Shown here piece after piece: positions 33,061 through 36,719 of a stretch of DNA of 64,000 nucleotides. The notes under the pieces are model-generated. The model saw nothing but the letters and a program-made list of their open reading frames with translations. It was not told where the DNA came from and did no database searches. Every line of letters begins with the position of its first letter. Position 1 is the first letter of the stretch. The DNA is from Treponema sp. J25 (GTDB lineage: Bacteria > Spirochaetota > Spirochaetia > Treponematales > Breznakiellaceae), in assembly GCF_004343725.1 (NCBI RefSeq), contig NZ_PTQW01000042.1, positions 1 through 64,000 on the forward strand, given 5' to 3'. A program made the position numbers and the translations under genes.

Positions 33061-33351
33061 GGAGCCTCACCACTTCTTACCCAACGTACCGGAAAAAGTA
33101 AAGGGGCCAGGCCGCCTCCGCCGCCCATCTAAAAGACGTAAACCATGGATTACCAACCTATACGACCGGTGTCTACTTTCTGTTTGCACACATTCCATAG
33201 CAGTAACTCTACTCGATTTTTTCTAAAAATGGTAGAGCGAAGGGGAAAATAGGGTTCTGAGGAACATTGCAAGATAAGTAACGCCCGATATCGAGGAAGC
33301 CCCTGGGGGAATAACGACTCCCGCACCAGTTGCGAAAAAAGTAGACACAAA
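33061..33351. other. Gap without a recognisable gene between the TIR-like/ankyrin gene and tRNA-Phe
   Basis: About 290 bases in which no coding frame of credible composition, RNA motif or repeat is seen. The tRNA terminator lies at its right side. The promoter of the murG operon must be in this stretch, but no clear sigma-70 box stands out. Confidence 0.4.
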
Positions 33352-33377
33352 AAAACCCTTCCAAAAGAAGGGCTTTT
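33352..33377 (-). terminator. Terminator of tRNA-Phe
   Basis: On the minus strand AGCCCTTC-ttttg-GAAGGGTTTTTTTG directly after the tRNA 3' end. Confidence 0.85.
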
Positions 33378-33378
33378 A

Positions 33379-33451
<73 letters not shown>

Positions 33452-33463
33452 AACATGGCTAGC

Positions 33464-33492
33464 TTTATACCCGAGGAACAAAAAAATGTCAA
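33464..33492 (-). promoter_or_regulatory. Promoter of tRNA-Phe
   Basis: On the minus strand TTGACA (33487-33492), 17 bp, TATAAA (33464-33469), 12 nt before the tRNA. A near-perfect sigma-70 site. Confidence 0.85.
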
Positions 33493-33527
33493 GAGCTCGT
33501 CTCGGCGGAATAGGAGTATTTCCTGGT

Positions 33528-33557
33528 TTGGACATTCACCACCGACTGTGCTATATT
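33528..33557 (+). promoter_or_regulatory. Putative promoter of the beta-barrel gene
   Basis: TTGGAC (33528-33533), 18 bp, TATATT (33552-33557), about 100 nt upstream of the start codon at 33658, leaving a leader that contains a hairpin at 33614-33632. Confidence 0.55.
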
Positions 33558-33613
33558 GTAAATACAGCGATTAATGGGGCTTTACAGAGCAGTATCTGTA
33601 AAGGAGCCAGTTC

Positions 33614-33632
33614 CCAATGGGATTCCCATTGG
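33614..33632 (+). promoter_or_regulatory. Leader hairpin upstream of the beta-barrel gene
   Basis: CCAATGGG-att-CCCATTGG is a perfect 8-bp inverted repeat, 12 nt before the AAGGAG ribosome site. It may act in RNA (stability or translation control) or as a DNA operator. Not a terminator, since no T-run follows. Confidence 0.5.
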
Positions 33633-33657
33633 AGATTGAAACGAAAGGAGCATGCTT

Positions 33658-34692
33658 ATGAGGATACGCCGAAGTATTTTTATCTTGATGATGGGGCTTT
33701 TTGTTCTCTGGCCCCTGGCCACCGGTTTTGGGCAGACGAACATAGCGGACATTCAGCGGGGAGCGGAAAAAACAGCCCAGGCCCTCGCGGTGGCGCTACC
33801 CTTTAATTCCACGGTGGGTCTTAACTGGTCCGATGCCTATATTGGCCAGATTCTAGGGGTTCCTCCCCATTTTGGGGTAGGTATTACGGCGGGAGCCACC
33901 ACGGTCCCCACGGTGGACTTAAAGCCCCTTTTAACCAACATGGGGGTAAGCCTTCCCGCAGGGGTTGATAAGGTGCTTCCCCTTCCTGTGGCGGTGGCAG
34001 AGGCCCGGGTGGGCGGGATACTCCTTCCCTTTGATGTGGGGATTAAGGCGGGATACATTCCCGATAGTCTCGGGAACACCATTAAAGACACCACGGGCGG
34101 CCTCTCGGTAAAATACCTCCTCGTGGGGGCCGATATCCGCTACGCCGTGCTGAAGGGAAACCTGGTGCTTCCCACGGTCTCCGTAGGACTCGGGGTAAAC
34201 TACATGGATGGAGGACTTGGAACCACCATCAGCGGGGCAGGGACTTCCTTCACCTATAACGAGGAAGCCACAACCCATACCATTGCGGCCACCGACCCAG
34301 AGGTGGGAGTTTCCTGGCGGGCCACCACGGTGGACCTGAAAGCCCAGGTATCCAAGGGCTTCCTCTTCTTTACCCCCTATGCGGGATTTGGGGCCACCTA
34401 CGGCGCCTCCCGGGCGGGGTACTATGTAAAGAGCAACCTTACTTATGACGGGGGCTCTATCGATCCAGCAGAAATCCAATCTATTAAATCTTACCTTCAG
34501 AGCCAGGGGGTGGCCGTTCCGGATATCTCCGCCACGGGAATCGAAAGTTACTTCGAAAAATCCGGCTGGGCCTTCCGGGCCTACGGGGGATTTTCCTTTA
34601 ACCTCGTCGTAATGAAGTTTGATCTTACAGGACTTTACAACTTCTCCGACGGAAGCTACGGCGCAAGTCTGGGACTCCGGTTCCAGCTGTAG
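33658..34692 (+). CDS. Outer-membrane beta-barrel protein
   Basis: 344 residues from the ATG at 33658, chosen because AAGGAG is 7 nt upstream; the ATG at 33652 is too close to it. The signal peptide is RIRRSIFILMMGLFVLWPLATGFGQ. The mature part has many alternating, Gly- and aromatic-rich segments (GVGITAGATTV, DVGIKAGYIP, VSVGLGVNYMDGG, FFTPYAGFGATYGASRAG, AFRAYGGFSFNLVVMKF) and ends in a strand-like LGLRFQL, consistent with a barrel of 12-14 strands. It resembles proteins called DUF6588 or OmpW-like. Its substrate is unknown. A terminator follows, so the gene is monocistronic. Confidence 0.75.
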   Translation: MRIRRSIFILMMGLFVLWPLATGFGQTNIADIQRGAEKTAQALAVALPFNSTVGLNWSDAYIGQILGVPPHFGVGITAGATTVPTVDLKPLLTNMGVSLPAGVDKVLPLPVAVAEARVGGILLPFDVGIKAGYIPDSLGNTIKDTTGGLSVKYLLVGADIRYAVLKGNLVLPTVSVGLGVNYMDGGLGTTISGAGTSFTYNEEATTHTIAATDPEVGVSWRATTVDLKAQVSKGFLFFTPYAGFGATYGASRAGYYVKSNLTYDGGSIDPAEIQSIKSYLQSQGVAVPDISATGIESYFEKSGWAFRAYGGFSFNLVVMKFDLTGLYNFSDGSYGASLGLRFQL

Positions 34693-34752
34693 GATTTCCG
34701 GGTAAAAGGGGTATCGGCTCCTGCGGGGGGCGGACACCCCTCTTTCTACTAC

Positions 34753-34778
34753 AAAAGGGGGCGATGCCCCCTTTTTTG
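34753..34778 (+). terminator. Terminator of the beta-barrel gene
   Basis: AAAAGGGGGC-gat-GCCCCCTTTTTT, a strong stem with a T-run on the plus strand. Confidence 0.9.
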
Positions 34779-34779
34779 T

Positions 34780-34809
34780 TTGATTCCCCCCCCCTTCATC
34801 TCTTATAAT
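34780..34809 (+). promoter_or_regulatory. cheW promoter with a C9 tract in the spacer
   Basis: TTGATT (34780-34785), 18 bp, TATAAT (34804-34809), then AGGAAGGGGG and ATG at 34833. Positions 34786-34794 are nine C in a row, inside the spacer, so its length would change by slippage. Confidence 0.6.
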
Positions 34810-34832
34810 AGACACTAAGGAAGGGGGCAAAA

Positions 34833-35324
34833 ATGGCAGAAACCCACCAATACCTTACCTTAAGCATCGAAGGGGAACGGTACGCAATTCCGGTACTGAA
34901 GGTCCGGGAAGTCCTGGAATACACCAAGATCACCCCCATACCTCGCATGGCAGAATACCTGAAGGGGATCATCAACCTCCGGGGGGCCAGTGTGCCCGTT
35001 ATCGACCTCAGAATAAAGTTCGGGCTTCCACCGAGCGAACCCACCCGGGAAACCAGTATCATCGTCCTTGATATCGATACCCAGGAAGGACCGCTTATTC
35101 TCGGGGCTCTGGCCGACGCGGTGCATGAGGTAATCGAACTGGATCCTTCCCAGATAGAGGAGGTGCCCCGCTTTGGAACAGGCCTCCTTATGAACTATGT
35201 TCAGGGGGTAGGGAAAAAGGACGGGGAATTCATCATCATCCTTAATATGGATGCCCTTTTTTCCACCGACGAAGTGGTCCAATTGGTTACTTCCCAGGAC
35301 CTACAGTTTGCCCAGAAAGAATAG
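34833..35324 (+). CDS. cheW: CheW-like chemotaxis coupling protein
   Basis: 163 residues in one CheW domain. YLTLSIEGERYAIPVLKVREVLEYTKITPIP, IINLRGASVPVIDLRIKFGLP and VHEVIELDPSQIEEVP are family segments; a second subdomain ends near residue 145. It couples receptors to CheA in the cytoplasm. No cheA or receptor gene is adjacent, and it is transcribed alone, facing the flagellar operon. It may be one of several CheW copies. Confidence 0.93.
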   Translation: MAETHQYLTLSIEGERYAIPVLKVREVLEYTKITPIPRMAEYLKGIINLRGASVPVIDLRIKFGLPPSEPTRETSIIVLDIDTQEGPLILGALADAVHEVIELDPSQIEEVPRFGTGLLMNYVQGVGKKDGEFIIILNMDALFSTDEVVQLVTSQDLQFAQKE

Positions 35325-35351
35325 CCGCCGGGGTGGACACCCAATATCACG

Positions 35352-35484
35352 CTGCTCTTTTCAGGGATCCTTTTCGAAGGGGCCTTGCTCGGTAAGAAGA
35401 GCAGAGACTCCCCCTGGGAGAGCTTTCCTTCCCTCCCGCAAAGGGGGCGCAAAAACTGGAAAGAGGGGCGCCCAAAGCCCCCTC
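35352..35484. other. Inverted repeats in the gap between cheW and the flagellar operon
   Basis: CTGCTCTT (35352-35359) and AAGAGCAG (35397-35404) can pair over a 37-nt loop, and GAGGGGC (35463-35469) with GCCCCCTC (35477-35484). The second is followed on the minus strand by TTTCC. They may jointly terminate the two convergent units, but neither is a clean terminator. Confidence 0.4.
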
Positions 35485-35491
35485 ACCAGGG

Positions 35492-36379
35492 TCAAAGAAG
35501 GGGGTTTTCCTGGTGGCGACGGGCTTCCACGGTGAGGGCCAGTTCTACCTCCGCCACCGTAACCCCCAGTTTTTTGGCAATCACATCAGGGCTTATGCCT
35601 GAACGGTACAGGCCCAGCACCTGTTCCCCCAGGGGAGGCGGTTTCGGCTGGATGGGCTCAGAAGAACGCACGAAAGCAGGAAAAGGTCGAGAAGAGGAGG
35701 GGCTTTTTTCTGGCTCCGCCGATGGGACTTTCTGTTCTGTTTTTTCCGCCCCGTCGGAGGCTTTTCTATCCGCGCCTTCGCCGCTGAAAGAGGGGGTACC
35801 CATCGGAGAGGGATTTTCCCGGGGGAAGGAGGAAAGAGCAGTCTCAACGGTTCCCGGGAGAGGCCCCCTTTGCAGAGGCCCGTTCTGGGGAGAAGCCTGT
35901 GGAATATCACCCTGAGGCCGATCAGAGGAGAGCCGCCGGGGGCTTCCCTCAGGGGAAGCCAGGGCGTTTTCTTCCATCTTCGGGGAAGAAGGGACAGGCA
36001 CTTCGAGTTCAGGGAAGAGAACCCCCGCTCCTTTCGAGGGGGAAGCGGGTTGTGACACACCTCCAGAGCTTTTCGCGCGCCGCCCTAGTTCCTGATAGGC
36101 CCGCTCTTCCTGCACCCGCCGCTCTACTTCCCGTTTGTAGCTTACAATACGCCGGTCCGTTTCTTCCAAAAGGGCTTTCAACTGCTTTACCCGCTCTTCG
36201 ATCAGGGTAATGTCCCGATCGGTGGTGGCATCAATCTCTCGAACAAGCTGGGCCACCTCTGCTTCGAGTTTTTCGAGGATCCGAGCAGGTTCGGTTCTCT
36301 TCTTCACATACCAGCGGAGGTACCACAACGAAAGGGCCCACAGCAACAGCCCCCCAAAAATAAGATAGGTACCCATCAT
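35492..36379 (-). CDS. Spirochaetal membrane-anchored protein with a C-terminal helix-turn-helix-like segment
   Basis: 295 residues. An N-terminal membrane helix (MMGTYLIFGGLLLWALSLWYLRW) precedes a charged coiled-coil (about 30-115) and a long Pro/Ser/Glu-rich unstructured linker (about 115-245). The C-terminus has VLGLYRSGISPDVIAKKLGVTVAEVELAL, a helix-turn-helix-like motif. Last gene of the flagellar operon. Similar proteins (DUF6115-like) follow fapA in treponemes; role unknown, possibly flagellar or cell-shape related. Confidence 0.7.
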   Translation of the reverse strand: MMGTYLIFGGLLLWALSLWYLRWYVKKRTEPARILEKLEAEVAQLVREIDATTDRDITLIEERVKQLKALLEETDRRIVSYKREVERRVQEERAYQELGRRAKSSGGVSQPASPSKGAGVLFPELEVPVPSSPKMEENALASPEGSPRRLSSDRPQGDIPQASPQNGPLQRGPLPGTVETALSSFPRENPSPMGTPSFSGEGADRKASDGAEKTEQKVPSAEPEKSPSSSRPFPAFVRSSEPIQPKPPPLGEQVLGLYRSGISPDVIAKKLGVTVAEVELALTVEARRHQENPLL

Positions 36380-36380
36380 C

Positions 36381-36719
36381 TTACCCGCTGAGATCGATCT
36401 TTGTTCCCAGTTCGGGATCCCGCACCACTTCTTTTTCTTTTTGTTCTGGGACTTCCTCTTCTTTTTCGCCAGGGGAGCGGCGTTGCCGGGGAGGAAGCTG
36501 TTTTTCCTTTTTCCCCGTATCGTCTTTTATTCGTTCTGCGCCGGTTTCGGGATTCTTGGTTTCCTTTACCGTCCGAACCTGTTCTTCATCTTTCTTTATC
36601 TGCTGGGCTACCTGGATAACCTGTTGTGCCGGGATATTTTCTTTGGTGCCACTCTGAAGTTTTCCGGCCTTATCAAGTTGACTGAATAAAGTCTGGAGAT
36701 CAATAGGTTGTATACCCAT
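36381..36719 (-). CDS. Small charged unknown protein in the flagellar operon
   Basis: 112 residues from the ATG at 36719, chosen for GAGGT upstream; the frame is open to 36755 but that would overlap fapA. GIQPIDLQTLFSQLDKAGKLQ at the N-terminus is helical, and the rest is Lys/Glu-rich and disordered. No domain is recognised. It lies between fapA and the DUF6115-like gene with one or two bases between them. Confidence 0.6.
   Translation of the reverse strand: MGIQPIDLQTLFSQLDKAGKLQSGTKENIPAQQVIQVAQQIKKDEEQVRTVKETKNPETGAERIKDDTGKKEKQLPPRQRRSPGEKEEEVPEQKEKEVVRDPELGTKIDLSG

Follow-up and report, generated by a model that had tools for sequence, protein, structure and literature searches.

A C9 tract in the promoter spacer of a cheW gene of Treponema sp. 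J25, a possible graded switch of chemotaxis coupling

Does the run of nine C in front of a cheW gene of Treponema sp. J25 act as a length-variable element that tunes transcription, or is it an accident in a drifting promoter spacer? Homopolymer tracts in promoter spacers have been described chiefly for surface proteins of pathogens, where they are explained by immune escape. Should cheW really stand under such a tract, it would be behaviour itself that is bet-hedged. The window analysed here is a stretch of 64,000 nucleotides (contig NZ_PTQW01000042.1, positions 1 to 64,000), and coordinates without a contig label refer to it.

The sequence and a promoter scan place a -35 hexamer TTGATT (4/6) at 34780-34785 (+) and a -10 hexamer TATAAT (6/6) at 34804-34809 (+). 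Between them lies a spacer of 18 bp (34786-34803), half of which is the C9 tract (34786-34794, +) and the remainder of which is TTCATCTCT (34795-34803). The tract is thus a homopolymer of at least eight bases located wholly between the two hexamers. The initial annotation had described a C9 tract separating TTGATT from TATAAT in an 18-bp spacer, and all of its coordinates match the sequence exactly. In an independent promoter scan TTGATT-N18-TATAAT scored 10/12, and it was among the three sites returned from 33500-36500, against a mean of 1.0 in shuffled sequence. The -10 hexamer is 23 bases from the cheW ATG, with transcription predicted to start at about 34816 from the position of the -10, and a likely G-rich ribosome-binding site precedes the ATG at 34819-34827 (+).

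The gene itself (34833-35324, +) encodes a CheW-domain coupling protein of 163 aa. PF01584 (E 9.2e-38; 129 bits, cut-off 23.5) covers residues 6-145 and so most of the protein, whereas the match to the NCBIfam equivalog NF007903 reaches 89 bits, under its cut-off of 260. It is one of five CheW-like places in the genome. Upstream of three of the others (L010, L011 and L012, the last over 244 bases) C/G runs of at least seven are absent; the remaining CheW-like match, L013 on the minus strand, is not counted in that check. An ORF of 299 aa on the strand opposite the cheW tract is taken as spurious.

Upstream of cheW lies a gene of 346 aa (33652-34692, +) with no match in Pfam or NCBIfam. A hairpin resembling an intrinsic terminator, with ten pairs followed by a T run, was found by hairpin scan and folding at 34753-34775 (+), between this gene and cheW; folding of 34750-34785 gave -16.1 kcal/mol (z -3.2). 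With cheW cut off from the upstream gene by this terminator-like hairpin, most cheW transcription should come from the C9 promoter. No second cheW promoter of the TTGACA/TATAAT type was found within 160 bases upstream. The runner-up there, scoring 8/12, combines the -10 of the C9 promoter with a -35 in a shifted position, so that no rival promoter of this type competes for the gene, and the possibility of a promoter elsewhere, which the initial annotation had named as a refutation, found no support in that stretch. Further upstream, a tRNA-Phe gene at 33378-33452 (-) lies under a 108-aa ORF (33209-33535), which because of this overlap is probably no protein gene.

At E <=1e-45, cheW was found in 6 of 195 family genomes, the own genome included, and in 3 of 56 genera, the genus of strain J25 being represented in this comparison by its own genome alone. 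This leaves five orthologues (L014, L015, L016, L017 and L043), the last from Gracilinema caldarium bin74; L176 has an upstream stretch identical to that of L043 and appears to be the same genome, and the two were counted once. All five have their best promoter, TTGAC[G/T]-N17/18-TA[A/C/G]AAT with a score of 10/12, in the same place before cheW, with spacers of 17, 17, 17, 17 and 18. In each case the promoter comes after the same upstream gene, whose end is conserved at these loci. The orthologue promoters were matched by scan, since the hexamers came out misaligned when MAFFT was applied to the intergenic regions, and that alignment was left out. This conservation of place makes the promoter credible as the one that serves cheW, as the initial annotation had assigned it, as far as sequence comparison can tell.

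The tract, on the other hand, is not part of what is conserved. None of the five orthologue spacers contains a C tract, their longest run being 2 to 4, and the spacer sequences vary freely among them. With the promoter present in 5/5 orthologues and the tract in 0/5, the promoter appears to have been kept in place while the tract belongs to this lineage alone. This is what would be expected of a genuine, constitutive promoter whose drifting spacer has acquired a C run by accident in this lineage, a run that may slip occasionally and has no selected role. We consider such a neutral origin a serious possibility, a little short of even, and the further evidence on it is divided.

The length of the tract fits a neutral origin. 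A single run of at least nine C is seen in the window, against 3.6 expected from dinucleotide composition, and tract length alone was rejected as evidence since C9 is within chance. Its position does not fit so easily. Only 18 of the 3036 intergenic 9-mers of the window (0.6%), those of the cheW spacer itself included, fall inside a promoter scoring at least 10/12, and 56 of 63,880 do so when all 9-mers of the window are taken; these counts apply to spacers of 16-19 on either strand, and the intergenic set follows from a simple longest-ORF call of the genes. When the flanks were shuffled, they equalled the score of the cheW promoter in 0.9% of 1000 trials, under a scoring in which the -35 must start with TT and the second and sixth bases of the -10 must be A and T. 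The position of C9 thus probably exceeds chance, but its length does not, and a location that is unlikely by chance speaks against a mere accident.

The alternative to a neutral run is a graded phase-variation switch, in which slippage of C9 would tune chemotaxis coupling through the spacer of the cheW promoter. We put this forward tentatively, at somewhat under an even chance and as about as likely as the neutral tract. An ordinary promoter of the sigma-70 type, belonging to an accessory cheW, would have been inherited in place, and its spacer would have turned C9 in this lineage. Slipped-strand errors would then either shorten the 18-bp spacer to 17, closer to the optimum and giving a stronger promoter, or lengthen it to 19, giving a weaker one. 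The initial annotation was right in its arithmetic that slippage by one base gives 17 or 19 bp, and with the spacer now at 18 the loss of one C leads to 17, so that the length steps pass through 17. Since a single base gives 17 or 19, a graded effect is expected and no clean on/off. A population would mix levels of cheW transcription, in the manner of porA and TP0126, and might benefit from doing so. MutS-type genes are present at two places in the genome, so slippage may be held down, and a change in cheW may be buffered by the four further CheW-like places.

Such a switch would have well described counterparts. The initial annotation had compared the tract with homopolymeric G tracts near promoters in T. 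pallidum, and the analogy is apt. The closest case is TP0126, an OmpW-like protein gene of T. pallidum with a poly-G between -35 and -10 and an optimum of 17 nt; as in cheW, the homopolymer lies between the hexamers and a one-base change brings the spacer to 17 or away from it (excerpts of PMC7864442). The two differ in that the TP0126 tract is poly-G, serves an outer membrane protein and has a demonstrated effect of length, according to the same excerpts, whereas the cheW tract is poly-C and serves a cytoplasmic coupling protein, for which we infer the effect. Similarly, the tract of porA in Neisseria meningitidis is described there as lying clearly between -10 and -35, with spacing setting transcription (PMC7864442, in part). 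It too differs from the cheW case in being poly-G, in belonging to a surface antigen and in having a demonstrated effect. The opc gene of N. meningitidis shares the poly-C in its promoter, which changed from 11C to 12C or 14C in 5/17 clones (excerpt of PMC6389960), but there the tract extends over the -35 region, and a regulator is presumed to mediate its effect (excerpts of PMC7864442).

Two further systems touch on chemotaxis and motility. In Helicobacter pylori a length-variable homopolymer controls the chemotaxis gene tlpB through the small RNA RepG (excerpt of PMC8295292). In that system, however, the G-repeat forms part of the mRNA leader, acts via the small RNA and concerns a receptor, not CheW (same excerpt). 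Upstream of the spirochaete motility gene fliG1 of T. pallidum there is a tract whose role is merely suggested; it is poly-G, and the excerpt gives no placement relative to the promoter (PMC3373638). Of 46 poly-G/C tracts with eight or more bases, 24 were length-variable among clones of the T. pallidum strain Nichols (excerpt of PMC10013896). Among the matches listed in the full-text literature on phase variation of chemotaxis genes, as titles and abstract starts, there was no report of a tract in a cheW promoter.

Support for the switch comes from other tracts in the same genome (3.18 Mb). It contains 14 C/G tracts of at least nine bases, of which seven are intergenic, six fall within long ORFs and the last occupies the 5' end of a lipoprotein-like frame. 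Five of the seven intergenic tracts sit between promoter hexamers scoring at least 10/12, where the 0.6% rate predicts about 0.04, and the four besides that of cheW, with the same layout, argue against a neutral accident. Two are G13 tracts, in TTGACA-N20-TATAAT (G000:C37:4928-4959, L105) and TTGACA-N21-TACAAT (G000:C41:2675-2712, L111), each before a gene for a short secreted bacteriocin-like peptide. Near both, a C39-type peptidase (PF03412) is encoded in the opposite direction, and a CAAX-type protease (PF02517) is close by at C41. The other two are G10 tracts following TTGACA with N22 (G000:C12:126324-126357 and 127993-128026, L096 and L098), before 73-aa peptides that have a double-glycine leader and a weak match to PF10439, below the cut-off. 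A nearly letter-identical G13 promoter occurs in another genus (G026:C1:296431-296462, L139) beside a similar gene set.

Because the tracts at C37 and C41 are paralogous, as are the two at C12, the five promoter tracts amount to three independent cases, and the C12 pair is the least certain since its spacer of 22 is long. The four G10-G13 tracts at bacteriocin-like loci, one layout being common to a relative, suggest that this genome uses promoter-spacer tracts of the porA/TP0126 kind, and the G13 set of C37, C41 and G026 is a strong candidate for phase variation. The G10-G13 tracts are better candidates than that of cheW, being longer and having spacers above the optimum, with the G13 set conserved between genera. 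The cheW tract, shorter than the other four and the sole one made of C, is the weakest of the promoter-spacer cases. Two other tracts in this genome are peculiar in themselves. One is a G9 tract (G000:C14:150219-150227, L103) close to the 5' end of a lipoprotein-like gene, whose likely ATG and lipoprotein signal stand in different frames in the assembly, as in an off-phase gene or through an assembly error. The other is a C18 tract (G000:C53:27517-27534, L118) located about 60 bases from an apparent contig end, which may be an assembly edge.

Across 98 family genomes the pattern TTGAC-(tract of at least nine)-TANNNT was matched 30 times by G tracts against once in the reversed control; of the 30, overlapping readings counted, 13 came from one genome and 7 from the own genome. 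For C tracts the same pattern in the same 98 genomes gave 15 matches against 18 in the control, and hence no excess. A looser pattern applied to the own genome gave 8 against 3 for G tracts and 6 against 5 for C tracts. On these counts, the idea that the family at large uses poly-C in promoter spacers was rejected. Since G tracts exceed the control and C tracts do not, the device, where enriched, is one of G on the coding side, and the C tract of cheW is without such support; the occurrence of C tracts in promoter spacers at control level favours the neutral origin. A fuller version of the switch, in which cheW is under stochastic graded control by its promoter spacer, in a lineage that also has poly-G promoters at bacteriocin-like loci, and in which clone-mates differ in receptor-motor coupling, seems to us rather unlikely.

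Pairing within RNA offers a different role for the tract. In RNA reading through from the upstream gene, the C tract could shut the cheW ribosome-binding site by pairing with its G run, so that only RNA begun at the cheW promoter would be translated. Folding of 34700-34845 does pair the C tract with the region of the ribosome-binding site (z -2.3 for the whole stretch), but any model would pair a C run with a G run. Moreover, the tract is missing from the orthologues, it lies upstream of the predicted start site, and the terminator-like hairpin should already stop most read-through, which together leave this insulating role very improbable. An opc-like effect, by which tract length would work via DNA shape or a bound regulator and not via hexamer spacing, has a precedent in the explanation given for the Neisseria poly-C promoter (excerpts of PMC7864442), but is highly doubtful here, where C9 lies entirely between the hexamers.

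Apart from cheW, the use of such tracts may extend to other members of the family. One relative (G044; L142, L149-L160) has about ten TTGACG promoters with G12-G17 in the spacer, several of which precede proteins with a secreted or outer-membrane-like start and have a similar stretch upstream; from their sequences, these loci look like a phase-variable surface set. Together with the bacteriocin-like loci of strain J25, this surface-protein set suggests a wider use of the device in some spirochaetes of the family. Windows of nine C or G number in the hundreds in many relatives (e.g. G010, G007 and G009, with 672+573 in G010), against 34 in the genome of strain J25.
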